43,771 bases of DNA, from positions 1 through 43,771 of the forward strand of contig PHCF01000007.1 of assembly GCA_002842145.1 (NCBI GenBank), given 5' to 3'. The position numbers were made by a program, and so were the translations under genes. The stretch is from Betaproteobacteria bacterium HGW-Betaproteobacteria-6 (GTDB lineage: Bacteria; Pseudomonadota; Gammaproteobacteria; Burkholderiales; Rhodocyclaceae). This document shows positions 7,145-38,476 of the stretch, piece by piece (within the stretch, counting starts at the first letter, position 1; every line of letters starts with the position of its first letter). The notes below the pieces were generated by a model. It saw only the letters and a program-made list of their open reading frames with translations. It did not search any database and had not been told where the DNA came from.

Positions 7145-8499
7145 GTACAGAAAAGCCACGCGCCCTGCTCATTGTTGAAGATGATCTTGCACTGCAAAAA
7201 CAGCTTCGTTGGTCTTTTGACCAATTTGAGACGTTGACCGCAGCAGACCGTGAAAGCGCCCTGGCGCAAATTCACCGTCACTGCCCTGCGGTCGTCACCA
7301 TGGATCTCGGATTGCCCCCTGACGCTGACTCCGTTTCCGAGGGGTTTCGATTGCTGGAGCAAACGTTGGCAGCCGCGCCAGATACAAAAGTCATTGTTCT
7401 GACCGGGCAGAATGACCGTACCAATGCGCTACGGGCAATTGCCCTTGGTGCCTATGACTTTTTCGCCAAGCCCTTCGAGCCGGAAATGCTTGCACTGACC
7501 ATTGATCGAGCATTTCGACTCCATGATCTGCAGCAGGAAAATCGTCGACTTTTGGCGGCCCAGCACCCACCTGCACTTGCTGGACTACTGACTCGCGATG
7601 CAGGCATGCAAAAAATATGCCGAACGATAGAGAAAGTTGCCAACAGCAGTGCGACCGTGCTTCTCCTCGGCGAAAGCGGGACCGGCAAGGAATTACTGGC
7701 GCGAGGCCTTCACGAGTCCTCACCGCGGAGCAAAGAACGCTTCGTGGCCATCAATTGCGCAGCCATTCCGGACAATCTGCTGGAAAGTGAACTCTTCGGC
7801 TATGAAAAAGGTGCGTTTACCGGTGCGGCAAAAACAACCCCTGGGAAAATCGAAAGTGCCAACGGCGGCACACTGATGCTCGACGAGATCGGCGACCTGC
7901 CCCTGTCGCTACAGGCAAAACTGTTGCGCTTCCTGCAAGAACGGGTCATTGAACGCCTTGGTGGGCGTTCGGAAATTCCGGTTGATGTGCGTATCGTCTG
8001 TGCTACACACCAGGATTTGAAAACCCATATCGGCAATGGCAGTTTTCGTGAAGACTTGTATTACAGGCTTGCCGAAATTGTTGTCCAAATCCCTCCTTTG
8101 CGCGAACGTCGGGGTGATCCTGCGTTGATGGCCCACGCTTTTGTACACCGGTTCGCAAACGAGCAGAAGCGTGGCAGCATGACGCTAAGCGAAGATGCTG
8201 TTCGAGCCATAGAGTCCCACCGATGGCCAGGCAATGTTCGCGAACTGGAAAATTGCATCAAGCGTGCGGTGATCATGGCCGATGGGTCGCGCATTTCTTG
8301 TGAAGACATTGGTCTGGACATCGAAGAGTCCACCGAGGTCGAATTCATTGACCTGCGCAAGGTGCGCGACGAGGCCGAACGTCAAGCCATTGTCACTGCA
8401 CTTGGGCGAGCCAATGGCAACCTCTTGCGCACATCCGAAATACTGGGCATCAGCCGGCCGACTTTGTATGACTTGATGCATCGCCTTGGCCTGAAATAA
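7141..8499 (+). CDS. prsR: PEP-CTERM-box sigma-54 response regulator PrsR
   Basis: A response regulator of 452 aa in the NtrC class. The receiver domain has the acidic pair in IVEDD (13-15), phospho-acceptor Asp55 (TMDLGLPP), Thr88 and Lys110. The AAA+ domain has Walker A GESGTGKE (177-184), the sigma-54 contact loop GAFTGA (224-229) and Walker B TLMLDEIGD. A Fis-type helix-turn-helix ends the protein (about 415-452, LRTSEILGISRPTLYDLM). It would be phosphorylated by PrsK and open sigma-54 promoters of exosortase-related genes. The GAFTGA motif is intact, so it should be able to activate sigma-54. The ATG overlaps the prsK stop. Confidence 0.95.
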   Translation: MSTEKPRALLIVEDDLALQKQLRWSFDQFETLTAADRESALAQIHRHCPAVVTMDLGLPPDADSVSEGFRLLEQTLAAAPDTKVIVLTGQNDRTNALRAIALGAYDFFAKPFEPEMLALTIDRAFRLHDLQQENRRLLAAQHPPALAGLLTRDAGMQKICRTIEKVANSSATVLLLGESGTGKELLARGLHESSPRSKERFVAINCAAIPDNLLESELFGYEKGAFTGAAKTTPGKIESANGGTLMLDEIGDLPLSLQAKLLRFLQERVIERLGGRSEIPVDVRIVCATHQDLKTHIGNGSFREDLYYRLAEIVVQIPPLRERRGDPALMAHAFVHRFANEQKRGSMTLSEDAVRAIESHRWPGNVRELENCIKRAVIMADGSRISCEDIGLDIEESTEVEFIDLRKVRDEAERQAIVTALGRANGNLLRTSEILGISRPTLYDLMHRLGLK

Positions 8500-8524: not shown

Positions 8525-11299
8525 ATGAAAAAATCGCGCTCGCTTTTCCCGACCGTTATTTCAACGGCACTTCTGACAATGCTGCTGGGTGCCTGCGGCG
8601 GCGACTCGCCGGAAAGCCTCATCCTGTCGAGCAAGGACTATCTGGCAAAAAAGGACTCCAAAGCTGCTGTCATTCAGCTGAAAAATGCACTGCAGCAGAA
8701 CCCAAACCTTGCCGAGGCCCGCTTCCTGCTCGGTTCGACCTTACTTGAAAACGGTGATGTTGCTGGCGCAGAAGTCGAACTACGCAAGGCACTGGAACTC
8801 AAGCATCCCGCCGATTCCACGGTACCGTTGCTGGCTCGTGCCATGCTGGCTGGAGGGCAGACAAAAAAACTGGCTGATGAATTTGGGACAACAAAGCTGA
8901 CAAGCGGCGAACCCCTAGCGGCACTTAACACAACATTGAGCGCTGCCTATGAATCTATGGGCAAGCGCGACATGGCCACAAAACTACTTGCCGAAGCCTT
9001 AGCCGCAAGCCCGAACTATGTTCCAGCCCGTCTTGCAGATATCAGGCAAACTGCCGCAAATAAAGACCTTACCGGTACTAGCTCAAAGCTCGACGCTCTT
9101 TTGAGTGAAAACCCGAATAATCCTGAAGCGCTCCTGATCAAGGGCAACCTCCTTGAGTTCGAAGGCGACGCATCCGGAGCATTAGCACATTACCAAAAGG
9201 CCATACAGGCAAGACCCAGTTATCTGAGCGCCCACTCGGCAGCGGTAGGATCGCTCCTCCGAGCCGAAAAAACCGATGAAGCAGTCAAGCAACTAGATGC
9301 TTTAAAGAAAATTTATGCCAAGCATCCGCAAGTCTACTTGCTTGATGCCCAGATCAACTATCAGCGCAAGGATTACAAAGCTGCTCGTGAATCTGCCCAG
9401 CAACTGTTGAGAATTTCTCCCAACAATCCGCTCAGCCTGCAAATGGCTGGTGCCATTGAATACCAATTGCGTTCCTACCTCCAGGCAGAAACCTATCTAG
9501 CCAAGGCCCTCCAATCTGCGCCTGAACTGCGGCTAGCCAGACGCCTTCTGGCATCCAGCCACTTGCGAACAGGCCAACCGGGCAAGGCTCTGGAAACCCT
9601 TCAGCCCTTACTGGCCAGCATCGATCAGGATTCAGCGCTGCTTGCTTTGGCCGGCGAAGCTTATTTGCTGCAAGGGGACCCAAAGAAGGCCGCCGACTAT
9701 TTTGCCAAGTCGAGCAAGCTAGAGCCCGAAAACGCCGCCAAAAAGACATCTCTAGCCTTGGCGCACATGGCGCAAGGCAACGCCGAATATGCCCTTCAGG
9801 AACTTGAACAAATATCCATTTCAGACAAAGGGATAACGGCTGATCTAGCTCTGATTGCCGCCCACCTCCGCAATAATCAAATCGATAAGGCGCTGAAGGC
9901 TATAGATGCTCTTGAGATAAAGCAGCCGAACAATCCGGCAACGCACAACCTCAAGGCCCGCTCTCTTCTGGCCAAGAAGGACATGGCCGGCGCTCGGCAA
10001 AGCTTCGAAAAAGCAGTGTCCATCAACCCAACCTTTTTCCCGGCCGTGGCCAGCCTGGCCACGTTGGATCTTCTCGACAAGAAACCGGATGAGGCTCGGA
10101 AGCGCTTTGAGGCAGTCATTGGCGCCGACCCGAAAAACATACAAGCACTACTCGCCTTGGCCGAACTTAAGGCTGCAAACGACGGGAATATGGACGAAGT
10201 CTCTGCACTCATTGGCAAGGCGATCAGTGCGGCCCCTAGCGAATCAGCTCCACGACTCGCTTTGATTCAGTACTTCCTCAAGGTCAAGGAAAACAAAAAA
10301 GCGCTTACCGCTGCGAACGAGGCTGCAAGTGCTATACAGGACAAGCCTGAAATTCTTGACGCGCTGGGCCGTACCCAACAGCTTGCAGGAGACCTGAATC
10401 AGGCTCAGGTAACCTACGGCAAGCTTGCTGCCCTCCAGCCGGCCTCGCCATTGCCGTTATTGCGCCTGGCCGAAATTCAGTTCACGAACAAGAACAAGGA
10501 AGACGGCATCAAGAACCTCAAGAAAGCCCTTGAGATCAAGCCCGATATCGTTCAGGCACAGCGTGCACTGATCATGCTTGCCATGGAAAGCAAGAATACG
10601 ACCGATGCTCTCGACATCGCCCGGACTGTCCAAAAACAGCGCCCCAAGGAGGCTATTGGCTTCCTTCTTGAGGGAGATATCCATGCCGTTGGCAGAGCTT
10701 GGCCGGCTGCAATCAATATTTTCCGGAGTGGCCTCAAGCAGGTTGCTGAACCGGAACTCGCCATCAAACTGCATGGATCATTGATCGCATCTGGGAACGC
10801 AGCAGAAGCGGAGAAAAATGCAAAGGCGTGGCTCAAGGAACATCCCAAGGATGTTGCTTTCCGGATGTATCTGGGTGACCGCGCATCTGGGCAAAAGAAC
10901 TATGCCCACGCCGCCAGTTACTATCAGACAGCATTGAGTCTTCAACCGAACAATGCTCTGATTCTTAACAATCTTGCTTGGGTATTGGGCCAGACCAAGT
11001 CTACTAAGGCCCTCGAATACGCCGAGAAGGCAAACCAGATCGCCCCCAACCAACCAGCCTTCATGGACACTCTAGCCATGTTGCTGGCTGACAAAGGCGA
11101 CACGATAAAGGCACTTGAATTGCTCAACAAAGCCGTCGCCGCAGCCCCCGAGGCCAGCGGAATTCAGCTTAACCGGGCCAAGGTCTTGATTTCGGCCGGA
11201 AAGAAAGACGAGGCGCGCAAGGAACTGGAGGCTCTGGCAAAGTTGGGCGACAAGTTTCCCGGTCAGGCCGAGGTCGGCGAACTACTGAAATCCTTTTGA
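8525..11299 (+). CDS. prsT: PEP-CTERM system TPR-repeat lipoprotein PrsT
   Basis: A lipoprotein of 924 aa. The leader is Lys/Arg-rich then hydrophobic and ends in the lipobox LLGAC with Cys24 as the lipidation site. The remainder is a long series of tetratricopeptide helices; typical units such as AEARFLLGSTLLENGDVAGA, NPEALLIKGNLLEFEGD and NNALILNNLAWVLG recur about every 34 residues. PrsT proteins of this length are found beside prsK-prsR in exosortase A genomes. They probably act as periplasmic or outer-membrane scaffolds for exopolysaccharide secretion, which is inference. The gene follows prsR by 25 bp, with a purine-rich AGAGAAGAAG before the ATG. Confidence 0.93.
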   Translation: MKKSRSLFPTVISTALLTMLLGACGGDSPESLILSSKDYLAKKDSKAAVIQLKNALQQNPNLAEARFLLGSTLLENGDVAGAEVELRKALELKHPADSTVPLLARAMLAGGQTKKLADEFGTTKLTSGEPLAALNTTLSAAYESMGKRDMATKLLAEALAASPNYVPARLADIRQTAANKDLTGTSSKLDALLSENPNNPEALLIKGNLLEFEGDASGALAHYQKAIQARPSYLSAHSAAVGSLLRAEKTDEAVKQLDALKKIYAKHPQVYLLDAQINYQRKDYKAARESAQQLLRISPNNPLSLQMAGAIEYQLRSYLQAETYLAKALQSAPELRLARRLLASSHLRTGQPGKALETLQPLLASIDQDSALLALAGEAYLLQGDPKKAADYFAKSSKLEPENAAKKTSLALAHMAQGNAEYALQELEQISISDKGITADLALIAAHLRNNQIDKALKAIDALEIKQPNNPATHNLKARSLLAKKDMAGARQSFEKAVSINPTFFPAVASLATLDLLDKKPDEARKRFEAVIGADPKNIQALLALAELKAANDGNMDEVSALIGKAISAAPSESAPRLALIQYFLKVKENKKALTAANEAASAIQDKPEILDALGRTQQLAGDLNQAQVTYGKLAALQPASPLPLLRLAEIQFTNKNKEDGIKNLKKALEIKPDIVQAQRALIMLAMESKNTTDALDIARTVQKQRPKEAIGFLLEGDIHAVGRAWPAAINIFRSGLKQVAEPELAIKLHGSLIASGNAAEAEKNAKAWLKEHPKDVAFRMYLGDRASGQKNYAHAASYYQTALSLQPNNALILNNLAWVLGQTKSTKALEYAEKANQIAPNQPAFMDTLAMLLADKGDTIKALELLNKAVAAAPEASGIQLNRAKVLISAGKKDEARKELEALAKLGDKFPGQAEVGELLKSF

Positions 11300-13546: not shown

Positions 13547-14317
13547 CTATCAAATCGTTCACTCGCATTCTGGTAAGTAGCCTAGCTTTTTTTGTTCGGC
13601 TTAATTCCAACAGGTGCTTCTGCTGAACTCTCGGACATCATCGATGACAATCAAACCTTCGATCGTAGCTGTGGGTACTTATCAAAAAATACAAAATCCG
13701 CGACTCATATTTCTTGGAACTGGTTTTGCCTTTGGTTCAGGCAATCATATTGCGACTAACTCCCACGTTCTACCTGAAGCAACACTACCCGACGGCCCGG
13801 AAATTGCGGTTTTACTGTCAAAGCGGAACGGTGAGAACAAGTTGCGTCGAGCCAAGATTGTTACAAAGGATCCTGCACACGACCTTGCGGTACTTCGTAT
13901 TGATGGCCACCCGCTCCCCTCCCCCCTCTCGTGACCGCTGACTCATTGTCGGTTCGCGAAAGCCAGGAAATCGCCTTTACAGGTTTTCCAATTGGTGGGG
14001 TACTGGGATTCTCCTCGGTGACACACCGTGGAATCGTTTCGGCCATCACCCCGATTGCGCAGCCCGGAGGGAATGCATCCCAACTGAGCCCGTGCTTGAT
14101 CAGCCAACTTAAACGACGAAAGTTCAATGTGCTGCAACTTGACGCGACAACCCATCACGGCAACAGCGGAAACCCTGTCGTTGATCCGGAATACGAACGA
14201 GTCGTTTGGCATAATCAATGTGGTCTTTGTAAAGGGGCAAAAGAAGCAGCTTTGTCTGCCCCCTCGGGAATAACTTACGCGATTCCAGTACACTTTTTGC
14301 TTCACTTGATGAACTAA
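13543..14317 (+). pseudogene. Trypsin-like (S1C/HtrA-type) serine protease, frameshifted
   Basis: Three pieces in different frames together make one protease. A signal-peptide piece starts at the GTG at 13543, overlapping the transglycosylase stop. Its frame changes near the T7 run at about 13588-13596, is lost again near 13644 (GATGACA), and changes a third time in the C-rich run 13914-13930. The middle piece (13644-13934) has TGFAFGSGNHIATNSHV (His) and DPAHDLAVLRID (Asp). The last piece (13931-14317) has the Ser motif HHGNSGNPV and ends PSGITYAIPV. All three catalytic residues survive, so decay is recent, or some shifts are sequencing errors in homopolymers. Such proteases commonly follow the Sel1/SLT gene in XrtA loci. 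Confidence 0.8.
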
Positions 14318-14423
14318 CGCCAGTGTCGACTTTCTTTACACTAACCAAGCCCGTTTGGAGGATTGGGCAAAACTGGGGGCACAAAATCGGACAACCAAAT
14401 GAAATTAAAGACAAATTATTTAT

Positions 14424-14439
14424 TTGCACAAATCTTGCT
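14424..14439 (+). promoter_or_regulatory. Possible sigma-54 -24/-12 promoter
   Basis: TTGCAC-AAATC-TTGCT matches the sigma-54 pattern TGGCAC-N5-TTGCW at every conserved position except one of the paired -24 guanines. It lies 97 bp before the start of the exported 209-aa protein, in the only sizeable gap upstream of the kinase/nucleotidyltransferase unit. PrsR, encoded 6 kb upstream, is a sigma-54 activator, so this could be a target. The missing G is a real weakness. Confidence 0.35.
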
Positions 14440-14535
14440 TTCAGTTCATCGACAGCGCAATTTTATTGATCCTCAATCAGATTTATTCCCCTCCCAGGAA
14501 TATGGTCGAATCGATATTTACCAACTGGTGCCACC

Positions 14536-15165
14536 ATGCTAGATAAACAACCGACCCTCCCTCCCTCAGAAGAAGCAGTTAATCAACAGCCCGCCGAACA
14601 GACTGAAAGCACGCGTCGCCGGGTGCTGACTTCTGCCATTTCTGCCTCCGCGTTGATAGTCACCGCAGCCAATAAGCCAGCATGGGCAGGAGATACATGC
14701 ACACGTTCGGCGCTCAACTCCGCCAATCTTTCGGGCCAGCATACCTTTGCAGGTTGCGGGAGGTCTGCGGGCATGTGGAAAACCCAGCAAGATCGATGGC
14801 CCTCGGACTGCCGGCCAAGCCAATTATTTACTAGCATTTTTGGCACTTGGATGTACAAGAGCTGGACATCAGGCCTGTTCGCAGGACTGACTCTGGGACA
14901 AGTGATTTGCATTGACGGCGCTTCAAATACCAACCCCGGAAATATTGCAATGCATGTTGTTGGCGCCTACGTTAACGCGCACGCTTTCCCCAAATCTAGC
15001 CCCAGTGGTAAGGGATATGCCTATTCACCGACTGAAGTAATTGACATGTTCAAGGCAGCCGCAAATAGCTCTTGTATATCACGGAGCCCCACCTATCTAG
15101 CCAACCTAAAAGACAAGTTTGATTTGGCAAATAACTTGTATGACGCGGTCACAGTCTGGCCGTAA
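14536..15165 (+). CDS. Uncharacterised exported protein, first gene of HPr-rel-A-type unit
   Basis: I do not recognise a domain in this 209-aa protein. The N-terminus is hydrophilic for 26 residues, then has three arginines and a hydrophobic stretch (RRRVLTSAISASALIVTAA) ending in a likely cleavage site KPAWAG. It resembles a Tat-like leader without the full SRRxFLK consensus. The mature part has several cysteines (CTRSALNSANLS, FAGCGRSAGMW, WPSDCRPS, ICIDGAS, SSCISRS) and no PEP-CTERM tail. The stop TAA shares its A with the ATG of the PqqD-like gene, so the pair is translationally coupled. That makes it the best candidate client of the following PqqD/HprK/nucleotidyltransferase-like proteins. 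No good ribosome site is visible at the ATG. Confidence 0.75.
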   Translation: MLDKQPTLPPSEEAVNQQPAEQTESTRRRVLTSAISASALIVTAANKPAWAGDTCTRSALNSANLSGQHTFAGCGRSAGMWKTQQDRWPSDCRPSQLFTSIFGTWMYKSWTSGLFAGLTLGQVICIDGASNTNPGNIAMHVVGAYVNAHAFPKSSPSGKGYAYSPTEVIDMFKAAANSSCISRSPTYLANLKDKFDLANNLYDAVTVWP

Positions 15166-15500
15166 TGAGCCTCACATACTGCCTACCCAACGGATCCAGA
15201 ACCCAATTTAGCTGGGTTTATTGGGATGAAGAAGCTGTGTTATACAATAACCTATCTGGCAACACTCACCGGATATTGGCGCCAGCAGGACACGCTCTGA
15301 AAGTTCTGGAGTCAAGTCACAACAGGACCTGCATTTCCGCTGAGTTGCTTTACCAGTTAATGCCTGGAAATTGCTCAGTCAAACTTGACAAGATCGAAGA
15401 GTTGTTATCATCGCTGTGTTTAATCGGTCTATTGAAAAAAAATCCCATTGAAGATTGCCGACCTCCCGCTCACGGAACTGACTCGTCGGCTTGCTGTTAA
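15165..15500 (+). CDS. PqqD-like peptide chaperone, HPr-rel-A system type
   Basis: A 111-aa protein with the pattern of PqqD-fold peptide-binding proteins. It has WVYWDEEAVLYNNLSGNTHRILAPAG at residues 18-43 (edge strand then 'LN..T..I..L' turn), a helix with HALKVLES, and a C-terminal winged-helix half (ISAELLYQLMP, KIEELLSSLCLIGLLKK). In RiPP and related pathways such domains hold a precursor for a modifying enzyme. Here the neighbours are an HprK-like kinase and a nucleotidyltransferase-like protein, the arrangement known as the HPr-rel-A system in exosortase A genomes; its biochemical role is unknown. The ATG overlaps the upstream stop by one base and its 3' end overlaps the kinase by 53 bp. 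Confidence 0.8.
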   Translation: MSLTYCLPNGSRTQFSWVYWDEEAVLYNNLSGNTHRILAPAGHALKVLESSHNRTCISAELLYQLMPGNCSVKLDKIEELLSSLCLIGLLKKNPIEDCRPPAHGTDSSACC

Positions 15501-16353
15501 TGGCCTGAGGATAAAAACCGGGCCATTTGTTTTTTCTATTCACAGCTCTCTTGAAGCAGTCAGGGATGGGCTGGCTGTTCTGTACGACCACTTTCCCACG
15601 GTAGCGTCGGACGCTTTCGCAGACTTTCATATATCCGTTGACCGCGCCAAGGGCATACGTCGTTGGATTCGTCCTCAAAGTGTTTTTGAGTTCGATGGCG
15701 AAATCCCCTTCAAACCGTTGACCGCCAGCCAGGGATTTGCATTGCTGGAATGGGGCATGAATTGGTGCATCTACAACCATGCGCATTCCTTCCTGATCAT
15801 TCATGGAGCAGTTCTGGAGCGCAAGGGCAAAGCACTGCTGATGCCAGCGCCGTCGGGATCAGGGAAAAGCACTTTATGTGGTGCGCTGATGACACAAGGT
15901 TGGCGCCTTCTATCCGATGAACTGATACTAATCAATCCAATTACCGGGTTGATCCATCCACTTGGTCGCCCTATCAGCCTAAAAAATCATTCAATCGAAG
16001 TATTGAAAAGGTTCGCGCCAAGCCATCACATCACGGCGCCTGTTTACGACACGGCCAAAGGAACGGTGGCGCACATGAAGCCATCATCACAAAGCGTAAC
16101 GTGCTGCAACGAGCTCGCTGTTCCTGGCTGGGTGGTTTTTCCTCAGTACTCAGCAGGGACACAAACCCAGATACTCCCGCTAGGAAAAGCTGACCTCTGC
16201 ATGCGCCTGATCGACAACGCTTTCAACTACAACATTCTTCGCCACGAAGGCTTCTCAACCATGACCCGCATGGTGAGCCACACCACTGGTTTCAGCGCGA
16301 CATATAGCGATTTGCATGATGTCATTCTCCAGATAAACCAGCTAACCGATTGA
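15448..16353 (+). CDS. HprK-related kinase A
   Basis: A 301-aa protein related to the C-terminal half of HPr kinase/phosphorylase. The P-loop APSGSGKSTL is at residues 134-143, preceded by LIIHGAVLERKGKALLM, and LLSDELILI follows at the position of the Walker B/second acidic site. It lacks the N-terminal regulatory domain of true HprK. It probably phosphorylates a protein partner using ATP; the target is unknown and the exported or PqqD-like neighbours are only guesses. The start is a TTG at 15448 inside the previous gene; no ATG in a sensible place competes with it. Tight overlap with its neighbours indicates one transcript. Confidence 0.85.
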   Translation: MKIADLPLTELTRRLAVNGLRIKTGPFVFSIHSSLEAVRDGLAVLYDHFPTVASDAFADFHISVDRAKGIRRWIRPQSVFEFDGEIPFKPLTASQGFALLEWGMNWCIYNHAHSFLIIHGAVLERKGKALLMPAPSGSGKSTLCGALMTQGWRLLSDELILINPITGLIHPLGRPISLKNHSIEVLKRFAPSHHITAPVYDTAKGTVAHMKPSSQSVTCCNELAVPGWVVFPQYSAGTQTQILPLGKADLCMRLIDNAFNYNILRHEGFSTMTRMVSHTTGFSATYSDLHDVILQINQLTD

Positions 16354-16360
16354 TCTCAAG

Positions 16361-17467
16361 ATGCAGGCTAATCGCATTCTCATCGATACACTGATTTCAC
16401 CCAAGAGGATCCAGCATTTGACAATCCCGGATTGGGAATTGGTCATTCGCCAAGCAAGGTCTTCGCAACTGCTTGCGCGCCTTGCCATTACGATCAACGA
16501 AGAAGCACTTGAGTCTTTGGTTCCCGAAGGTGCACAGCGGCATCTCAGAGCTGCGATAGCACACCAATCGCATCTCCGTAACGCCGTTCGCAACGAAGTG
16601 GCGTACATCGCGGAAGCTCTTGATTCCATTAAGACTCGATTGACCCTGCTAAAAGGAGCAGCTTACGAGCTAGCTGACTTGGCTCCTGCCAGATACCGCA
16701 TTTTTAATGACATCGATCTGCTAGTACAAAAAGAGCGGATCAATGATGTTGAACTCAGCCTATTACTACACGGCTGGGCAGGCATTCAACACGACCAGTA
16801 CGATGATCACTACTACCGCACGTGGATGCACGAAATACCACCCATGAGGCACCTCGAGCGACACAGCATCATTGACGTACATCACAACATCGTTCCTGAC
16901 TTCGGCAAGATTCATCTCCCAGCGGAAAAGCTACTTAGGGATACGCGTCAATGCCTTAATGCACCCGGAGTGTTCGTACTATCCATTCCGGATCTAATCT
17001 TGCACAGCGCGGTGCACCTATTCAACGACGGAGAATTTGACCACGCCCTGCGCGACCTATTCGATATCAGGGATCTTATCCGAGAATCGATTATTTCAGA
17101 TGCTGATTGGCAACAGCTGATTTCTCGAGCAGAGGAGCTCGGCCTTGGCCGACCACTCTATTATGCGTTGCGCTATCTCAATATCGTGCTTAAAGAGCCA
17201 TACGCTCCTTACCTTAAGCGGCTTACAAAATACGCGCCAAACTCGACTGCCCTGAAAGTTATGGACTATTTGTTCGTTCGAGGACTAAAGCCAGAACATT
17301 CGAGCTGTGATGATTCAAGCACATTGCTAGCCCGCTTTTTACTTTATGTACGCGGCCATACATTACGAATGCCATTGCGGCTATTACTGCCTCATCTGGC
17401 GAGAAAAGCAGTCACGCAACTACGGAACAAATATTTCTCACGGCAAGAACCACTACGCCTCCCCTAG
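16361..17467 (+). CDS. Nucleotidyltransferase-family protein
   Basis: A 368-aa protein of the uncharacterised nucleotidyltransferase group (PF14907-like). The signature LLKGAAYELADL (96-107) followed by RIFNDIDLLV (113-122) supplies the DxD metal ligands, and a later ERHSIIDVHHNIVP segment is also typical. The C-terminal half is helical and basic, ending in RNKYFSRQEPLRLP. It begins 8 bp after the kinase-like gene and is the last gene of the unit. Members of this group are thought to transfer a nucleotidyl group to a protein or small molecule, but no substrate is established. No terminator is visible after it. Confidence 0.83.
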   Translation: MQANRILIDTLISPKRIQHLTIPDWELVIRQARSSQLLARLAITINEEALESLVPEGAQRHLRAAIAHQSHLRNAVRNEVAYIAEALDSIKTRLTLLKGAAYELADLAPARYRIFNDIDLLVQKERINDVELSLLLHGWAGIQHDQYDDHYYRTWMHEIPPMRHLERHSIIDVHHNIVPDFGKIHLPAEKLLRDTRQCLNAPGVFVLSIPDLILHSAVHLFNDGEFDHALRDLFDIRDLIRESIISDADWQQLISRAEELGLGRPLYYALRYLNIVLKEPYAPYLKRLTKYAPNSTALKVMDYLFVRGLKPEHSSCDDSSTLLARFLLYVRGHTLRMPLRLLLPHLARKAVTQLRNKYFSRQEPLRLP

Positions 17468-18931: not shown

Positions 18932-20623
18932 ATGCGCTCAAAACTACGTACACTTACGGTCGGACTGCTTGTTTGCTCAACCGCCCCGCTCTACGCTCAA
19001 ACTGCTCCCGACGCCGGTTCTCTGCTGCGGGAACAGGAGCGGCAGCGCCCTGAACTTCCACGGCCGTCCCCGCAGGGCGTCCCGCAAGCACCTGCCCAGC
19101 TACAGAAAAGCGGCCTGAGAGTCACCGTCAAAGCCTTCCGCATCAGCGGCAACAGCCTGATTGCCGACCCCGAACTGCAAACCGTGCTTGCCCCTTGGGT
19201 TGGTCAGGAAGTCGGCTACGGCGACCTGCAGAAAGCGCTTGATGCCCTTTCCGAAACCTACCGCCGGCACGGCTGGTTTGCCCGGCCGCAGCTTCCGGCT
19301 CAAGACATAACGGATGGCGAAATCCTCATCAACATTCTCGAAGGCAGACTTGGCGCAATAAAGATTGATGACCAGGGCAAGGGACTGCGTACCAGCCGGG
19401 AATTCATCAACCAAACCATGACCGCCCGCCAGAAACCCGGCGAACCGCTCAACCTTGATGCTATCGAACGCAGCAACAGCCTGCTCAACGACACGCCCGG
19501 CCTGGCCGCCAATACCTTACTGTCCCCCGGGAAGACAGCGGGCGAATCCGACGCTATCGTCAAAGTCTCGGACACGGCCCTCGTCACCGCCATCGTTCAG
19601 GCCGACAACCAGGGTTCCCGCTCCACCGGAAGCAACAAGTTGACCGCAAACGGCACCCTCGACAACCCGCTGGGTATCGGTGATCAGGTCCAGCTCAACA
19701 CCAATGCCAGCGAGGGCAGCCAATACGCCAAGCTGGGCTACTCCCTGCCGGTCGGTGGCGATGGCCTGCGTCTGGGTGCCAGCAGTTCGTATATGCAATA
19801 CCGCCTGATCGGCGACCTCGCCTCGCTCAAGGGCAAGGGCGATGCCCAGACCTACGGCCTCTACTCTACCTATCCGCTGCTGCGCAGCGGCATCCGCAAC
19901 ATCAACCTCAGCGCTGCCTACGACCGCAAGAACTACTACAACGAAGCTAATGCCGTCACCACCTCAGAGAAGGTGCTCGATGTGCTGGCAGTTGGCATCT
20001 CCGGCGATCTACTCGACGGTTTTGGTGGCGGAGGCATGACGCTATGGAGCCTGAGTCTTACTGGCGGTCACGTCGACCTCTCTGCCACCTCCAGCAATGA
20101 GCGCGCCGACCGCATCGGGCCACAAACCGCCGGCAGCTTCCACAAACTCGCCTACAGTTTGGCCCGGCTGCAGCGTCTCCCCCGCAAGACCACTCTGTGG
20201 GCTTCGTTCAGCGGTCAGGCCGCCGGCAAGAACCTCGACTCCTCAGAAAAAATGTCTCTTGGCGGCCCCTTCGGTGTGCGCGCCTATCCGATCCTGGAAG
20301 GCACAGGGGACGACGGGTGGCTGGCGACGGTAGAAGCCCGCTACAACCTGCTGCCCGAGCTGCAGCTTGCCGTCTTCTACGACCATGGCTGGATCAAGCA
20401 AAGCCACGATCCGGCCTACACCGGTTCGCCCTTGGTAAACACCGGGACACTCAAGGGCGCCGGGCTCTCGGTTAGCTGGACCCAGACCGCCTCCTTCAGC
20501 CTGAAAGCCGTCTGGGCCAGGCGCATCGACGACAACCCCTTCGCCAACCCGCTCGACGGCAAGGATACGGACGGCAGCCTGGACAAAAACCGCTTTTGGT
20601 TAACTGCCATCAAGTTCTTCTGA
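18932..20623 (+). CDS. TpsB outer-membrane transporter (ShlB/FhaC/HecB family)
   Basis: A 563-aa outer-membrane protein that would export the giant TpsA protein encoded downstream. The signal peptide ends near PLYAQ (residue 22-23). A proline-rich linker follows, then a POTRA domain (about 65-140; FRISGNSLI and EILINILEGRLGAI), a second POTRA-like part, and a 16-strand barrel with FGVRAYPILEGTGDDGW near the VRGY/L6 position. It ends in RFWLTAIKFF with terminal Phe, as needed for BAM-dependent insertion. AGGGTGG lies 5-11 nt before the ATG. Length is normal for the family. Confidence 0.95.
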   Translation: MRSKLRTLTVGLLVCSTAPLYAQTAPDAGSLLREQERQRPELPRPSPQGVPQAPAQLQKSGLRVTVKAFRISGNSLIADPELQTVLAPWVGQEVGYGDLQKALDALSETYRRHGWFARPQLPAQDITDGEILINILEGRLGAIKIDDQGKGLRTSREFINQTMTARQKPGEPLNLDAIERSNSLLNDTPGLAANTLLSPGKTAGESDAIVKVSDTALVTAIVQADNQGSRSTGSNKLTANGTLDNPLGIGDQVQLNTNASEGSQYAKLGYSLPVGGDGLRLGASSSYMQYRLIGDLASLKGKGDAQTYGLYSTYPLLRSGIRNINLSAAYDRKNYYNEANAVTTSEKVLDVLAVGISGDLLDGFGGGGMTLWSLSLTGGHVDLSATSSNERADRIGPQTAGSFHKLAYSLARLQRLPRKTTLWASFSGQAAGKNLDSSEKMSLGGPFGVRAYPILEGTGDDGWLATVEARYNLLPELQLAVFYDHGWIKQSHDPAYTGSPLVNTGTLKGAGLSVSWTQTASFSLKAVWARRIDDNPFANPLDGKDTDGSLDKNRFWLTAIKFF

Positions 20624-20628
20624 ACGTA

Positions 20629-21528
20629 ATGAGCCACCGCCCTACATCGCTCGCCCTCTGCCTTGCCGTCCTCACCAGCAGCGCCGATGCGCTTCCGCCC
20701 CAGGTCGCCCCTGCTCCACTCAGCAAAGTTTCTTCGGTACAACTCATGAACACACCGCGCCCGCTCTTCTTTTCCGACCTTGTCGCCTTCAATACCGAAC
20801 AGCATCGCAACCTGCGCCTGCCAGCACAGCGCAAGAACTTCGCCTTTGCCGCCAGCGCCACCCTGTTGCCGCTTACCGTCGCCGAAGTGGGCGCCGCCGT
20901 GCGCCACTATCCCATCGTCTTCGTCCAGGAAGGCGAGACGGTGGCCCTGGTGGCGCTGACCGGACTGCCCGGCACCGGTAACCGCTTTGTCGACGCCAAA
21001 GGCGAATGGCGCGCCGACAGTTACGTTCCGGCTTACGTCCGCGGCTACCCCTTCATTGCCGTGCGTCCAGCGCCGGGCGCCGAACCGATTATCGCCTTCG
21101 ACCCCAATGCCGCCGACTTCAAGGACAAAAACGGGCAGCCGTTGATCGGCAGCGATGGCCAGCCCGGCGAACAACTCAAGGGCATCCTCGCCTTCCACGG
21201 CGAGTACCAAGGGCTAGCCGAGCGTACCCACGTAATCGCCGCCGCCCTGAAAGCCGAAGGCGTGCTCGAAGAAGGGCAGCTCAACGTTCAGTTACCAGGC
21301 AACCCCCAGGCCACGCCAATCGGTGGCTTCCTGGTGGTCAGCGAAGCCAGGCTGCGCGCCCTGTCGCCGGAGGCTTTGAAGCGCCTGATGGACCTCGATG
21401 CCATCGGTCTGGCCTACGCCCATCTGCTATCCATGGGCAACCTGGCCCAACTCGTCGACGCTGACCCCGTCAAGCGCAACGCCAACAGCCCGGCACGGAC
21501 GCGTAACAGCAAGAAATCAGGGGAGTAA
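20629..21528 (+). CDS. SapC-family protein with signal peptide
   Basis: A 299-aa protein with the SapC-domain pattern: LVAFNTEQHRNLRL, then VRHYPIVFVQEGE, VALVALTGLPGTGNRFVDAK, GEWRADSYVPAYVRGYPF, GQPLIGSDG, and LKGILAFHGEYQGLAERTH. SapC proteins are usually encoded near surface-layer or secreted-protein genes, but no reaction is established. Here the first ~22 residues look like a cleavable signal (LALCLAVLTSSADALP), which would place it in the periplasm. The gene lies between tpsB and tpsA, 5 bp after the TpsB stop, so it probably works on or with the adhesin. I chose the ATG at 20629, although a start overlapping tpsB at 20596 is possible. Confidence 0.82.
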   Translation: MSHRPTSLALCLAVLTSSADALPPQVAPAPLSKVSSVQLMNTPRPLFFSDLVAFNTEQHRNLRLPAQRKNFAFAASATLLPLTVAEVGAAVRHYPIVFVQEGETVALVALTGLPGTGNRFVDAKGEWRADSYVPAYVRGYPFIAVRPAPGAEPIIAFDPNAADFKDKNGQPLIGSDGQPGEQLKGILAFHGEYQGLAERTHVIAAALKAEGVLEEGQLNVQLPGNPQATPIGGFLVVSEARLRALSPEALKRLMDLDAIGLAYAHLLSMGNLAQLVDADPVKRNANSPARTRNSKKSGE

Positions 21529-21532
21529 GAGC

Positions 21533-24500
21533 ATGAACAAGTTTTTCCGGATTGTCTGGAGTGCCATTCGCGGCGCTTTCATTGTCGCCCATGAAAAAGC
21601 CAACAGTCACGGTAAGCCATCCTCTACCCGCCGGGGTGCCGCCACGGCACTGATGGCCAGCCTGCTTACCAGCTCCGGCCTGATCTTCGCTGCTCCGCCG
21701 GTCAATACCCTGCCCACCGGTGGCCAGATCGTCGGCGGTGCCGCCGCCGGCAATATCGCCACCAGCGGCAATGCCATGACCGTGACCCAGAACCAGCAGC
21801 GCATGGTGGCGAACTGGGATACCTACAGTATCGGCCAGAACGCCAGCGTGCATTACCAGCAGCCAACCGGCGGCGTGGCGCTCAACCGGGTCAATGGCGG
21901 CCAGCCGTCCGAAATCTTCGGCCAGCTCAGCGCCACCGGCACCGTCTATCTGCTCAACAGCGCCGGCATCCTGTTCGGCCGCACGGCGCAGGTCGACGTC
22001 GGGGCGCTGGTCGCCGCCACTGGCAAGATGAGCGATGCCGACTTCCTGGCCGGCAAGATGAAAATCGTTCAGGACGGTGCTACCGGCAAGATCGTCAACG
22101 AAGGCCAGCTAAAAGCCGCCATCGACGGTTACATTGCCCTGTTGGCACCCGAAGTGCGCAACCAGGGCGTCATCTTTGCCGAAAAAGGCACCATTGCGCT
22201 CGCCGCTGGCGAAGCTTACGAGCTGCAATTTGACGGTACCCGCCTGGCCAACGTACGCGTCGAACCCGGTGTCTTCAACGCCCTCGTCGAAAACCACCAG
22301 GCCGTGGAAGCCCCCGGCGGACTCATTATTCTCTCCGCGAAGGCCGTTAACCGCCTGCAAGGTGCCGCCATCCGGAACATCGGCACCCTCGACGCCAGCA
22401 GCATGACCATGAAGGGCGGACGTATCCTGCTCGAAGCCAGTTCATCGGTAGAGAACAGCGGCACCATCAAGGCCACGGGCAGCGCCAGCCAGCCCGGCGG
22501 CAGCGTCGAAATCATCGCGCCGCAGGTGCTCAATAGCGGGATGATCGATGTCTCCGGCAGCACCGCTGGCAGCGTCACGGTCAAAGCCAGCGACAGTTTT
22601 ACCCAGAGCGGCACGATTTTGGCCAAAGGTCTCGTCGACCGCGGGGGTGAGGTTCGTCTCGCCCTGGCGCAAACCGTCACCCTGAACCCCGGCAGCAGCA
22701 TCGACGTCAGCGGCAGCACGCAGGGCGGCAGCGTTTATGCCGAATCGGCCAGCACTGTGGACGTCACTGGCACCATCGACGCCAGCAGCGACAATGGTGC
22801 GGGCGGCAGCATCGAAATCGCCGCCGGCAGCGAAGCCCGCCTAAACAACGCCACGCTCGACGCCAGCGGCCCGGTGCTGGGCGGCACGATCCGCGTCAGC
22901 GCCCGCCAGAGCACCCACGCCAGCCTGGCTGACCCGCAAAACCCGATCAACGACCCGACCGCACCCGGCACCCCCGGCCATGTTCTCATCACTGGCAATA
23001 CCACCGTCGCCACGCGCAGCAGCCGGGGCAAGGGCGGCAGGGTGGAACTGACCGGCGACGACCTGCTGCTCGGGACGGGCAGCCTGCTCGACGCCAGCGG
23101 CGCGACCGGCGGCGGCGAAGTGCTGGTCGGCGGCGACTGGCAGGGTAGCAACGGTGTCTATCAGGCCACCACGGTGACGATGGAGCAAGGTGCAGCCATC
23201 GATGTCAGCGCAACAGAAAATGGCAACGGCGGCAAGGTGGTTTTGTGGTCCGATGTCAGCAATGCCGACAGCCATACCGCGGTGGCGGGCATAATCAAGT
23301 CAGAAGGTGCAGGCAACGGTAACGGCGGCAAGGTCGAGACCTCGGGACATGAACTACGCGTACAACGAACCGCCCGCGTCAGCACGCTCTCGCTTTTCGG
23401 TAAAAACGGCGAGTGGTTGATCGACCCGACCAATTTCACCATTTCGGCAGGTGGCGCAGCCCAGACCACCAGTGGCATGGGCGCAGACACGCTGGCAACC
23501 AATCTTGCCTCTGGCAACGTCACCATTACCACCTCGGCCTCTGGTAGCGAGAACGGCGACATCACCGTTGCTGCCGATATCACCAAGAGTGCCGGCGCCG
23601 ACGCCACGCTCACCCTCAAAGCCCACGGTAGCGTCATTCAGAACGCCGGCACCAACATCACCTCCACCAGTAACAAGCTCAACCTGGTTCTGTGGGCCGA
23701 CATGGACGCCACGGGCGGTGGCTTCGTGCAACTTGGCGGCGCTTCGGCGACCACGATCGACACCAATGGCGGCCACCTGTGGACCGGCGGCGGCAGCGGC
23801 AGCACCACATGGAACGGCCTGACCGTCGGCAACGGCTATGCCATCGGCAACAGCACGGCTAACTCCAACGGTATTTATCTGGACAACGTCACCATCGCGA
23901 CCGGTGGCGGCAATATCGCCATGTACGGCCAAAGCACCTCGGGGGCTGCTGTTCAGGTCGGCGGTGCCAGCGGCGATACCACGGCGGACGGTATCCATTT
24001 CTCGTCCTTGCACGGTTCCAGCATCAACTCCGGTGCCGGCATCATCCTCCTGTCCGGCAAAGGCGCCAGCACCACGGCAGGAACTCGCAGCGGCGGGGTG
24101 GGCTTCGCCAACGCCAGTACACCGGTCACCCATACCGTCACCTCTGCCGCCACCTCGGGCAATGCCATCACCATCACCGGCGACGCCAGCGCTGCCTCGG
24201 CAGCCCAGGTGCCCGGCGTCTGGCTCGATGGCGTGAACATTTCGGCCAGCGCCGCCAGCGGCAGCGTCGTCGTCACCGGCGTTAACGGCACCGGCACCGA
24301 CACCGCCAATTCCAAGGCCATCCAGCAGGGCAACTTCGCCAACTCCGCCATTTCCGCAGCGGGCGGCGACATTACCGTCATTGGCAACAGTCTGGCACTG
24401 ACCGACAACGGATCGACCAGGAAGACCACGCTGACCGGCACCTCCACCAGCACGATCACGCTACAGCCTTACACCGCCAACACTACGGTCGGCCTGAACG

Positions 24501-27500
24501 ATGACACTCGGGCCTTCAACATCACATCGGATCTGATTTCCAACAACCTGACCCCAGGTTTCAAAGGCCTGACGGTGGGCAGCACGACCTCCGGCGGGCT
24601 TTCCGTGGGCAACCAGTTTTCCTGGTCGAACTACCTGCTGAAGCTGATTTCGGGCAGCAGTATTGCCATCAACAACACCCTGACCGGCACCGGTACTGCC
24701 GGACTGGAACTCGACTACGGCGGGAGCTATTCGCTTGGCAACAACAAAGTGAATCTTGCCTCCACCGGCAGCTTTGCCACCAAGTATGGCAGCGCCCCTG
24801 TCAAGAACTATGTCGTTATCACGAGTCTAGGTGCAGATGGCAGTACCACGGGCACTGACTTGCAGGGCATGGCCGGCAGCACGAGCAGCAATTACGTGCT
24901 CGGAGCCGATATTGATGCCTCGCCAACAAGCGGCTGGACCAACAAATGGACCCCCGTCCAAAACTTCTCTGGCGAGTTTGATGGCCTTGGCCATAGCATC
25001 ACCGGACTAACCATTGACGGTACTGGAAGCAACAGAGGGCTGTTTGGCTCATCCACCGCCGGCGCTACTTTCCGCAATGTCGGACTAATCAATGCCAGCC
25101 TTACGGGCAATGGTACATACGCCGGCGCCCTGATCGGCTCTGGTGGCGGAACTAACCTAATCATCAGCAACGTCTATGCCACGGGCAGCGTTTCTGGAGA
25201 CCGATACGTAGGCGGCTTGATTGGCGGCAGCGCTGCAACGAACTTGACCATCAGCAACAGCTATACCGATGTGGTGGTCACTGCCAGCCATTTTGATAGC
25301 CGTGCAGGTGGCATTGTCGGGATCGCGAATTATGTGGCCTTTACAGATGTGCATGCTAACGGCAGTGTCTCCTCGGTTGGCGACTATCTCGGCGGTCTGG
25401 TGGGTTACGCTAACACGGGAGGCTCATTCACACGTACTTATAACCTTGGCCAAGTCGGCGTCAAGGACGCCAGCACGGCGTATGCGAGTGCGACTTCCGG
25501 TACTGATTATGCGGCGGGGCTGGTCGGGTTTGCGAACGGAAACGTCTGGATTGACAACAGCTATAACAAAGGCGACATATACGGCTACTGGGGTATCGGC
25601 GGACTCGTGGGTTACGCCGGCCCGGCTCTTAATATCAATAAAAGTTACAACACCGGCCGCGTCAGCACCATGCAGGGCAATGGCTATAAGGCTGGCGGTC
25701 TAGTCGGTGTAAGTGGCAGCAGCAGTCTGACTATTCGAGACAGCTACGTCCTGGGTGATGTGTATGCCTACTCGTTTGCCGGTGGGCTGGTTGGCGAACT
25801 TGGCACAGGTGGCGGAACCCTGGTTAAAACCTATGTCGGCAGCAGCAGCGTTTACGCACCTACGACCGCAAATTACGGCTTTGGCGACCTCGGCACCTAT
25901 TCAGCGACAGCCGGCAAGGAACAAGGTGGATGGAGCTTTGAGGGCCTTGTTTACAATAGCGCTATTGGCCAGCCATCCAGCAGGATGGACTCCGGCAATT
26001 TTTTCAACAGCACCCAGAATAGTTGGAATGTGGCGCCCGTCTCCCTGGCTAGTATGACAGGGCAGAATACCTATTACTTCACGAATGTCTTTGTGAATGC
26101 TAACGCTCGTTTCGACTTTACGAACACCTGGGCGACCACTGCGGGGACAAACGGCGGCTTCCCCTATCTGATCAGCAACCCGCCTGTCATCCCGCTTACC
26201 ATCAACGTCACTGCCCTCTCCAAGACCTACGGTGACGCAAATCCGTCGCTGACCGGTCAATACTCGCTGAGCGGCTGCACCGGCTGTATTACGCTTGATT
26301 GGGGCAGCTTGCTGACCACCTCCACAGCCGCGGGCAGCTACGCCTACAGCACCAACAACCTGCTCTCCCTGACCTACAACTCGGGCAACGCCAGCAGTTA
26401 TTCCATCAGTTGGGGCGGCACCAGTTTCACGGTCAATCCACGGCCGATCAACATCACCGTGAACAGTGGCCAGACCAAGACCTATGGTGCGGTCAACCCG
26501 ACCTACAGCTATACCGCTGAAGCCGCAGGCAGCAGCAGGGGCCTGGTCAATGGCGACACCTTCACAGGTGCCCTTGGCCGCGTCGCCGGTGAAAATGTCG
26601 GCACCTACGCTATCAACAACGTGGGGACGCTGGCCAACAGCAACTATGCCATTGCGGTCGTGCCGGCCAATTTCTCGATCACTCAGGCTCCGCTGACCGT
26701 CACCGCCAGCGCGCAGAGCAAGACCTACGGCTCGGCACTGACGCTGGGCACTTCGGCCTTCACCTCATCCGGATTGCAGAACAGCGAAACGATTGGCGGG
26801 GTGACGCTCACCGCATCAGGCGGTACGGCTGCCATTGATAACGCCGGTAGCTATAGCATCACGCCGAGCGCCGCTACCGGCGGGACTTTCACTGCAAGCA
26901 ACTACAACATCACCTATAACACCGGTGTGCTGACGGTTGATCCAGCGCTGATCACGCTCACTGCCACTGCCCAAAGCAAAACCTACGGATCGACGCTGAA
27001 TCTTGGAACCACGGCTTACAGCATCACCTCCGGCTCCCTCAAAAACAGCGATACCATCACCGGTGTGACGCTGACCAGTGCCGGTGCAGTGGATACGGCC
27101 AACGCCACCACTTACACTATTACGCCCAGTGCTGCCACCGGCACCGGCGGCTTTGGCACCACCAACTACACCATCAGTTATGTCGACGGCACGCTGACGG
27201 TGAACAAGGCGCCGCTTACCATCACCGCTGCCAACGACAGCAAGACCTATGATGCTATCGCTTATTCGGGTGGCAATGGTGTCAGCTATAGCGGCTTTGT
27301 GTTGGGGCAGGACATCACTGCACTGGGCGGCACGCTTGTTTATACAACGGGTACTTCCAACGGGGCCACAAATGCCGGCAGCTACACCATTCGGCCGAGC
27401 GGCTATACTTCGGGCAACTACAGCTTCAGCTATGTGGATGGCACGCTGACGATCGATAGGAAAACCGTCACCCTGTCCGCTGCCAAAACCTACGACGGCG

Positions 27501-34202: not shown

Positions 34203-35366
34203 TCAAAGCAAGAACATGACCGGGTCGGAATTTCGAATGAGCTCAATCAGTTGCTTCTGTTCGCTGTCGGTCAGTTCTTCCTTGGCGATTAGTTCACGAT
34301 AGCGATTCGCATTGGCTTTCTGCTCAGGGGTGAGGACCGTGTTCTTGCGCGCGCCGATATAGGCATTCGATATCGCGAGGCGGGTATGTCCGGCGTCCTG
34401 GCTTATCCGGCTGCGCGCTAGGTCATGCGTCAGTTGGTCTATCTGGGCTGTCACATTCGTACTGCGAACCGGAGAAGGGACGCCCGTCAGTGTTTCGTAC
34501 AGATCGTTGAGAAACTGATGGCGCAGACCGTGGGAGGTAATGCCCAGCGCACGATGGGTGATCCCGAATTTCTCCATCACGTAGTTGAAGCGCCGTATGG
34601 CTTGCTCCAGATTCAGGTCAGGATGCCCAATGTGTTCATTGACCTTCGAGACGGTGGTCTTGGCATAGTCGATCAGATCCCGTTGCGCCGCCGTTTCCAA
34701 AAGCACCACACGCTCCCGGCCACCCTTGGTGCCATCACGCACCCGAATCGCCGCGCCCATGTCGGCCTGCAGTGGGCGAAACATGACGGCTTCCTTGCGG
34801 CGCAGTCCAAAGGCCAGCATGAGCTTGAGTTGCAGCCCTACCCGCTTGTCGTGTTGCTCGACCAGGCTGATCATCGCGTGAATGTCGATACCAGCGGCGG
34901 TCCAGGATTTATCTTCAGTCGTGGCTTGCATCCGGCGCACCGAATTCGGATCATTCACGAAATCCGCCGCCTTCTGGATCATGCCGGGTTTTCCAATCCA
35001 GATGGAGAGGGCACGCAGGCAGGAGATCCGATTCGCAATGGTGGAGGCTGACAGGCCGCGTTCTTCCCACGATTTCGCCAGCACATGAACGTGCCGCTGT
35101 TGCAGGTTGTGCACGGTCTCGAGCTTGTAGCCCAGTCCGTGCAGTTCCCGAAAGCTGAGCACCAGCTTTTCGCGACGCGCGTCCACGGTTTCGTGCCCGA
35201 CGATCTTGTTCTGCCGCGTGGCTTTCCGCCCGTGTTCATTGACCAAGGCGTTGAGTTCGTTCCAGAGGCGCTCGGGCAGGTAGCTTTGGCTGGCGCTCGA
35301 ATTCTTCGAGTGATCGCCATCAGCGGTGGTGCGACCAGGAGATCGCTTATTGCTATTCGTGTTCAT
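34203..35366 (-). CDS. Tyrosine recombinase (integrase)
   Basis: A 387-aa phage-type integrase. The N-terminal SAM-like DNA-binding part covers about 60-135 (LQQRHVHVLAKSWEERGLSA) and the catalytic domain about 155-345. Catalytic residues are visible: Arg189 in AFGLRRKEAV, Lys in GTKGGRERV, HGLRH (His279, Arg282), His327 in AGHTRL and nucleophile Tyr336 in ISNAYIG. It resembles the Integrase_1/Phage_int_SAM_2 type found on proteobacterial islands. I chose the ATG at 35366, which has GGAG 8 nt upstream, over an ATG 24 bp earlier. It is complete and likely able to excise or insert the element next to the tRNA fragment at 33.5 kb. Confidence 0.92.
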   Translation of the reverse strand: MNTNSNKRSPGRTTADGDHSKNSSASQSYLPERLWNELNALVNEHGRKATRQNKIVGHETVDARREKLVLSFRELHGLGYKLETVHNLQQRHVHVLAKSWEERGLSASTIANRISCLRALSIWIGKPGMIQKAADFVNDPNSVRRMQATTEDKSWTAAGIDIHAMISLVEQHDKRVGLQLKLMLAFGLRRKEAVMFRPLQADMGAAIRVRDGTKGGRERVVLLETAAQRDLIDYAKTTVSKVNEHIGHPDLNLEQAIRRFNYVMEKFGITHRALGITSHGLRHQFLNDLYETLTGVPSPVRSTNVTAQIDQLTHDLARSRISQDAGHTRLAISNAYIGARKNTVLTPEQKANANRYRELIAKEELTDSEQKQLIELIRNSDPVMFLL

Positions 35367-36417: not shown

Positions 36418-36583
36418 GGCATTGGTGCCGATTTGTCGTCTATCTGTGGCGTGGGACAAGATTGCGAATCATCCGGTTGCCGACACATCGTCCTCTGTGT
36501 CGATCTATCGCGTTTGATACCGCTTTTGCCGGTGTCTTACTGAGCCAACGGCGCTAAGTCGGCATTTGTGCCGATATGTTGTC
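36418..36583. repeat. Pair of 23-bp direct repeats
   Basis: 36418-36440 (GGCATTGGTGCCGATTTGTC...) and 36561-36583 (GGCATTTGTGCCGATATGTT...) match at 20 of 23 positions, 143 bp apart. They lie upstream of a small operon that starts at 36747. They could be iterons or protein-binding sites. Confidence 0.6.
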
Positions 36584-38466: not shown

Positions 38467-38476
38467 AGGAGTCACC

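Follow-up and report, generated by a model that had tools for sequence, protein, structure and literature searches.

An HprK-related kinase trio and its accompanying twin-arginine signal protein: a candidate modification cassette with a predicted PEP-CTERM-type promoter in Proteobacteria

What does the orphan Proteobacteria enzyme trio of a PqqD-like protein, an HprK-related kinase and a nucleotidyltransferase-fold (NTF) protein act upon? The question is raised by a 43,771-nucleotide stretch of Betaproteobacteria bacterium HGW-Betaproteobacteria-6 (contig PHCF01000007.1, assembly GCA_002842145.1; the whole stretch is hereafter called the window), in which the trio directly follows a gene for a small protein with an export signal. 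A preliminary description made from the letters of this DNA regarded that protein as a candidate client of the trio and proposed a post-translational modification that had not been described chemically. Comparative analysis of 191 distinct loci shows that a client with a twin-arginine translocation (Tat) signal and the trio travel together, and the client is a likely target of modification by the trio, because the trio adjoins a predicted exported-protein gene in nearly all loci, often with the promoter signal of PEP-CTERM proteins, which belong to the slime-layer surface. As a whole, the earlier interpretation is partly supported, and the PEP-CTERM box and sigma-54 site at the client gene, absent from that description, are new here.

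The four genes lie on the forward strand of the window and encode the client, a 209-amino-acid Tat-signal protein of type 1 with a GYWK-like mature domain (14536–15165, assigned by reading of the open reading frame (ORF), profiles and alignments); the PqqD-like protein of 111 amino acids, resembling a RiPP (ribosomally synthesized and post-translationally modified peptide) recognition element, or RRE (15165–15500; TIGR04353, 27.8 bits, below cut-off); HprK-related kinase A of 301 amino acids with a TTG start (15448–16353); and the PF14907 NTF protein of 368 amino acids, with a DxD motif at residues 117–119 (16361–17467). The kinase scores 351 bits against TIGR04352 (cut-off 200), the threshold for HPr-rel-A in NCBIfam, and the fourth product 156 bits against PF14907 (cut-off 31). 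The first two genes have one base in common, at 15165, just as had been noted, and a gap of 7 bases separates the kinase and NTF genes; the claim that overlaps or gaps of at most 8 bp join all four genes fails at the PqqD-like and kinase genes, which overlap by 53 bases. The kinase N-terminus read from the TTG start, MKIADLPLTELTRRL, is similar to MIIQDLSLDELTRRL in a relative. Compared with a same-genus locus (L057), the ratio of nonsynonymous to synonymous substitution rates (dN/dS) is 0.19 for the client, 0.085 for the kinase, 0.094 for the NTF gene and 0.40 for the PqqD-like gene, the last value taking in the stretch that overlaps the kinase gene, and purifying selection acts on all four. 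The unit is real and goes beyond chance, because 68 of the 399 genomes examined in the order have a TIGR04352 match above the cut-off and the arrangement recurs.

Those 68 genomes hold 69 places with such a kinase, and a phylum sample gave matches in 61 of 398 genomes. A first set of 72 loci consists of the 69 places and three loci found through the client itself (L036, L077, L078), while a second set of 128 loci, picked by kinase similarity, combines 48 from the phylum sample with 80 from named genomes; after removal of nine duplicates, these 200 loci represent 191 distinct kinases. A Tat-signal client was present on the trio's strand in 180 of the 191 distinct loci (177 of 188 once the three loci found through the client are set aside), and the check proposed in the preliminary description thus speaks for it. 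The Tat criterion is loose, being passed by 42 of 547 other ORFs in the first-set neighbourhoods. Clients are mostly 130–290 amino acids long and mostly directly 5' of the PqqD-like gene. In the first set, a Tat-like client was identified in 64 of 72 loci, 62 by script (two of them with the ORF corrected) and two by hand, and the remaining eight also have one by reading or profile: it lies 3' of the NTF gene in L093, L046, L045, L050 and L048, 3' of the NTF gene and followed by the PqqD gene in L073, and upstream in L075, and is known from a downstream profile match alone in L031. In the second set, the script found a client in 112 of 128 loci and reading added five (L177, L171, L238, L169, L154). 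Altogether, the client has been relocated behind the NTF gene in 10 loci, still inside the cluster. The PqqD-like gene was recognized by profile in 68/72 and 115/128 loci of the two sets, and an NTF gene in 186 of 200; four of the 14 misses have fewer than 160 bases downstream, and the other 10 have about 1.5 kb. Carriers include named Beta- and Gammaproteobacteria as well as a Sphingomonas plasmid, and the client is annotated as "hypothetical protein" on plasmids of Vibrio alfacsensis and Sphingomonas parapaucimobilis. Two loci (L238, L217) carry two different clients in tandem 3' of the NTF gene. Another, L154, encodes a very short client upstream of the kinase; the twin arginine and the stop codon are only about 46 residues apart, suggesting a mature peptide of roughly 20 amino acids that would be more RiPP-like than other clients.

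The pairing was also examined from the side of the client. A profile (A1) built from the mature parts of 45 type-1 clients, with at most nine candidates scored per genome, gave 52 matches in 49 of the 399 genomes of the order. Of these, 48 lie less than 4 kb from a kinase gene, all on the same strand, with 6 downstream and 42 upstream, the latter figure equalling the number of training rows from the same genomes. The situation imagined as a refutation, in which homologues would occur mostly away from these genes, was thus not seen. Among the 10 further matches, six (five genes) lie by the kinase gene and four fall inside ORFs of 1046–2888 amino acids; three of these four were found again in the DNA (L258, L259, L260), where only the GYWKNH part matches, and L258 and L259 belong to genomes without the kinase. 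A type-1 client lies near 47 of the 69 kinase places, and no free-standing mature type-1 client gene away from the trio was found with this profile in the 399 genomes.

The client itself was rightly described as an exported-type, Cys-containing product without a known domain. Its leader (residues 1–51, 14536–14688, defined from the sequence and from N-terminal alignments of 64 and 167 clients) is a Tat-type signal with RR from residue 27 and AWA at 49–51, cleavage being expected after A51; five cysteines are present (C55, C74, C92, C125, C180), NCBIfam gave no match, and Pfam gave sub-threshold matches only (HpuA, nec1). A twin arginine occurs in all 64 aligned clients, a set chosen on RR-like motifs, and the genome of the window contains a TatC gene; with signal and machinery both present, the client is a predicted Tat substrate. 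Among 167 distinct N-termini, likewise chosen on RR-like motifs, the shared features are the twin arginine, a Thr (119/167) or Ser (29/167) in the hydrophobic stretch, and an aligned Cys (151/167). Mature parts are otherwise divergent, but each of the aligned types keeps an invariant or almost invariant Ser shortly behind the signal. In the 45 type-1 mature clients, S58 and S62 are the sole invariant residues; in a broader alignment of 70 sequences (A4), S62 is invariant and S58 is conserved in at least 90%. These positions at the mature N-terminus (S58 to S62, 14707–14721) are the predicted phospho-acceptors. In types 2/3, a Ser just past the signal is invariant in 18 sequences and present in at least 90% of 44 leaders. 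Under a crude cleavage-site rule, 164 of 167 clients have a Ser within 12 residues of the mature start. A structural model of the client is helical (mean predicted local distance difference test 73.7, predicted template modelling score 0.64). Two matches in the PDB were set aside, one of the single sequence to Geopilin domain 2 (E 0.029, weak) and one of the profile to an unrelated entry (E 0.67). Clients in L054 and L048 have Ser-rich C-terminal tails.

Evidence from the trio points in the direction of peptide modification. A profile of 71 PqqD-like proteins (A5; the window and 70 relatives) matches the lasso-peptide RREs TfuB1 (1.4e-5) and TbiB1 (8.4e-5), through PDB entries 6jx3 and 5v1u, in keeping with the PqqD fold assumed previously. 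For the kinase profile, the match to HPr kinase structures is weak (6e-4), and the active-site residues H119, K140, D157 and E158 of the kinase are invariant in 39 sequences (A3). In the NTF protein, the K, G, R, DxD and a third D are retained in all 185 aligned rows. Two natural fusions, a kinase-NTF protein of 708 amino acids (L150, 1437–3561) and, on a Deinococcus psychrotolerans plasmid (L263, 3782–5122), a fusion of PF14907 to a transglutaminase-like PF13471 domain annotated as lasso B2, support joint action and a role in peptide modification. A supposed PqqD-HprK fusion in L054 was rejected, as its extended frame does not read as PqqD.

The promoter region suggests when such a unit would be expressed. 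Upstream of the client, an exact TGTCGN6TTTACA match, TGTCGACTTTCTTTACA (14324–14340, forward strand), corresponds to PEP-CTERM box motif 1, the predicted PrsR activator site, and a motif scan placed a sigma-54 −24/−12 promoter at 14424–14439 on the same strand (TTGCACAAATCTTGCT), with 10 of 11 consensus positions and a T for the first G of the −24 GG as the sole departure. Its first base, 14424, is where the preliminary description began. The published PEP-CTERM box has a motif 1 ending in TTTACA, a spacer of 32–92 and a sigma-54 motif 2 (PMC1569441); with a spacer of 83 nucleotides the window site fits it, pointing to predicted control within the PrsR/PEP-CTERM regulon. Within the window alone, allowing up to one mismatch, these motifs are not above chance (their counts are equalled or exceeded in 43 of 100 shuffles for motif 1 and in 22 of 100 for the sigma-54 site), and the case for regulation therefore rests on the genome and the relatives. 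Among 162 client upstream regions, 97 have a sigma-54 site of at least 9/11; shuffles of equal composition give 11.5, the reverse strand gives 12, and among coding controls the figure is 25 of 324. The element TGTCG-N6-TTTACA recurs 5' of the sigma-54 site upstream of clients, in agreement with the published box, and a bipartite box score of at least 19 was reached in 89 of 151 regions (shuffled sequences of equal composition gave 0.4, the reverse strand 2), a score that uses the TGTCG half-motif found in the same set and for which the window's own genome is the independent check. There, eight exact motif-1 matches occur (one for the backward pattern): six precede genes with PEP-CTERM tails, one precedes the client and one neither; one of the six has a poor sigma-54 site (7/11), and the last has no good one. 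In four further genomes, 23 exact sites (5 backward) precede 13 PEP-CTERM genes, 2 clients and 8 others, and the five genomes pooled give 31 (6 backward) before 19 PEP-CTERM genes, 3 clients and 9 others. Comparison thus shows that the client promoter carries the PEP-CTERM box.

The presumed regulators lie close by, the window encoding, on the forward strand, the PrsK histidine kinase of the XrtA/PEP-CTERM system (5033–7144, TIGR02916, 936 bits), the sigma-54-type response regulator PrsR (7072–8499, TIGR02915, 751 bits) and the tetratricopeptide-repeat lipoprotein PrsT (8525–11299, TIGR02917, 916 bits). Within the order, PrsK is present in 65 of 68 HprK-rel-A genomes versus 40 of 331 others, counts that are uncorrected for phylogeny. 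Where both genes share one contig (37 genomes), they lie within 15 kb of each other in 24 and more than 300 kb apart in 5. Outside the order, 40 HprK-rel-A genomes and 40 others were tested: PrsK accompanies the kinase in 7/7 genomes of one family (f53) and 11/11 of another (f85), and occurs in 1/40 genomes without the kinase. Of 131 loci, 54 have exopolysaccharide- or XrtA-type genes at a distance of up to about 5 kb.

Taken together, the unit with moderate probability unites a client and its modification enzymes in one cassette, which belongs to the PrsK/PrsR/sigma-54 (PEP-CTERM, exopolysaccharide) regulon and in which the client would be phosphorylated, and perhaps glycosylated or nucleotidylated, in the cytoplasm before its export through Tat. 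PrsR and RpoN would turn on the operon while exopolysaccharide and PEP-CTERM surface proteins are being made, and the PqqD-like protein, with its RRE fold, may keep the client in the cytoplasm and offer it to the HprK-like kinase, which would phosphorylate the conserved Ser soon past the signal peptide, here S58 and/or S62. The PF14907 protein could then cap or extend the phosphate with a hexose or nucleotide. Modification would precede export, since ATP is cytoplasmic, and Tat would suit this order as a route for folded proteins; the mature client may finally act in the periplasm or the polysaccharide matrix. It is a prediction drawn from comparison of sequences that PqqD binds the client, that the client is phosphorylated and on which Ser, what the NTF protein makes, that PrsR is in control and that the client has a role in the matrix.

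A number of observations weigh against this account. No client was seen in 7 of the 191 loci (L144, L146, L147, L150, L153, L164, L175), and four more (L215, L237, L245, L252) end at a contig end. As to the acceptor, no one mature position carries Ser across types (maximum 47 of 167 under the crude cleavage-site rule), and a C-terminal Ser in a CWTS-like motif is also invariant in the 18 sequences of types 2/3, which leaves the site uncertain. The [YW]xxP RRE-binding motif of lasso and linear polyphosphorylated peptide (LPP) leaders occurs in 6 of 167 leaders, compared with 5.5 in shuffles, and a leader motif of that kind was rejected on this frequency. Recognition across client types by the leader only gave a mixed outcome: a non-type-1 leader profile found the type-1 client in just 11 of 41 genomes and missed it in the window's own, and clients made up 11 of its 47 hits, including all six below E 0.003. 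The TIGR04353 score of the window PqqD-like protein (E 3.7e-6) is under the curated cut-off of 35, for which reason strict membership of HPr-rel-A as defined by NCBIfam is not claimed; a local PqqD profile scores it 70.5 bits, with the window sequence among its seeds. On the side of regulation, the box score, with its half-motif taken from the same set, has a weak value of less than 17 for 44 of the 151 regions upstream of clients, an exact motif-1 site before the client is absent in two of the four further genomes, and 40 genomes of the order have PrsK without HprK-rel-A. Moreover, PrsK is absent in 22 of the 40 HprK-rel-A genomes outside the order, all 22 belonging to other families of another class, presumably Alphaproteobacteria, and a universal XrtA link was rejected on this account. 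Finally, LppN of the LPP system had no detectable activity in its heterologous host (PMC13381572).

Several alternatives deserve consideration in the light of these data. It is unlikely that the trio acts on another protein or on a small molecule of exopolysaccharide synthesis, the client being merely a co-regulated matrix protein; the promoter box of the client, identical in kind to that of PEP-CTERM genes, would agree with such a role, as would the occurrence of the GYWKNH part within four long proteins that are not near the trio, of which two belong to trio-less genomes, but the near one-to-one pairing across divergent client types, the persistence of the client in the cluster despite its changed position and the known capacity of RRE-type proteins to present peptides all favour the client as target. 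A mere chance neighbourhood, with an unrelated exported gene beside the trio, is refuted by the locus survey, since 180 of 191 loci, including those of named Beta- and Gammaproteobacteria and of a Sphingomonas plasmid, show the pairing, and its probability is negligible.

If the client is indeed modified, the position and nature of the modification may be questioned. A C-terminal position of the phosphorylated residue, like that in lasso peptides of the paeninodin type, where PadeK targets a C-terminal Ser (PMC9266682), would suit the CWTS-like motif of types 2/3, but seems very improbable given that the two N-terminal serines are the only invariant residues in 45 type-1 mature clients and that the window client ends in TVWP. 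A tentative possibility of greater weight is that the PF14907 protein transfers adenosine or uridine monophosphate, rather than a hexose, to the phospho-Ser or straight to the client: the nucleotidyltransferase active-site residues are kept in 185 of 185 rows and a review leaves nucleotidylation open for PsmN, whereas the reported product of this nucleotidyltransferase homologue is a hexosylated phospho-Ser (PMC9266682). It is also conceivable, but rather doubtful, that a phosphosugar, put on the Ser of a Tat-exported client by the kinase and the PF14907 protein together, serves as a covalent start or anchor of exopolysaccharide, producing a protein-polysaccharide linkage in the matrix; if so, the LPP and paeninodin cassettes in capsule loci of Bacillota would embody the same idea.

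The favoured reading, that of a modified and Tat-exported client, would provide the orphan trio with a defined substrate family, a predicted site and a predicted regulator (PrsK/PrsR with sigma-54), in a biological setting of exopolysaccharide and, by what has been published on PEP-CTERM (PMC9850573), of the surfaces of flocs or biofilms. If true, RRE-guided kinase chemistry would reach beyond small peptides to Tat-exported proteins, and one common role is suggested for such trios in loci for capsule and exopolysaccharide, in Bacillota as in Pseudomonadota. Other genes of the window include, beside the unit, a trypsin-like protease gene (13614–14317, forward strand) that is broken by several frame-breaking differences from its intact L057 relative, and 39 of 131 loci have a trypsin-like gene no more than about 5 kb away. 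Downstream on the same strand is a two-partner secretion (TPS) pair, consisting of a ShlB-type transporter (18932–20623) and a 3315-amino-acid TPS adhesin with YDG and MBG repeats (21398–31345). Beyond the adhesin (34203–43264) lie genes for a phage-type integrase, an AAA ATPase and metallo-beta-lactamase-fold proteins.

Literature searches, including TIGR04352, TIGR04353 and related names, returned no publication on this Tat-client system, and in that respect the chemical novelty claimed at the outset stands; it does not extend to the type of chemistry, as the lasso and LPP peptides of Bacillota have published chemistry that involves HprK-like kinases, RREs and NTF proteins. In capsule loci of Bacillota, the HprK-like kinase LppK, whose gene has those of an RRE and an NTP transferase as neighbours, adds phosphates to Ser3 in the core of LppA (PMC13381572). 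Judged by the published description of the Lpp proteins, the window unit shares with the lppA-K-B-S-D-N system the discrete RRE, the HprK-like kinase and the NTP transferase, a precursor with a conserved N-terminus, a variable remainder (35–200 amino acids) and a Ser right after the leader, and the polysaccharide-locus context (PMC13381572). In contrast to LPP, the present clients bear a Tat signal, usually have a larger mature domain and lack a [YW]xxP motif, and the unit is under a promoter of PrsR/sigma-54 type; neither an SpI-like LppS peptidase nor an MsbA-like exporter was found among the 24 window ORFs scanned. The paeninodin and pseudomycoidin systems likewise combine a kinase (PadeK, PsmK) and a nucleotidyltransferase (PsmN) with B1/RRE, and PadeK phosphorylates the C-terminal Ser of a lasso peptide, while with PsmK and PsmN a lasso Ser is phosphorylated and then hexosylated, PsmN adding hexose to phospho-Ser (PMC9266682). 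Unlike these, the window unit has no short lasso precursor, and a macrolactam synthetase and a B2 leader peptidase were not found among the same 24 ORFs; an asparagine-synthase-like gene lies near 10 of 131 loci. The unit thus appears, from its sequences, to resemble LPP and lasso cassettes in its working but is filed as neither, because the leader-motif and accessory-gene tests failed.

Closer in composition is HPr-rel-A (NCBIfam TIGR04352, TIGR04353), with which the unit shares a kinase above cut-off, a PqqD-like gene and an NTF neighbour. The PF14907 gene adjacent to the kinase in the window corresponds to what we take to be a component of that system, and an annotated Sphingomonas plasmid has the identical four-gene order with the HPr-rel-A name on its PqqD gene; the differences are the sub-threshold PqqD-like protein of the window and a client annotated, in two plasmids, only as a hypothetical protein. 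The remaining relationship is to the PEP-CTERM/XrtA (EpsH) system, from whose proteins the client differs in its Tat-type signal and in ending LYDAVTVWP instead of in a PEP-CTERM tail, and with which the unit shares the same bipartite upstream site (PMC1569441), co-occurrence in genomes of the order and a common locus in the window.

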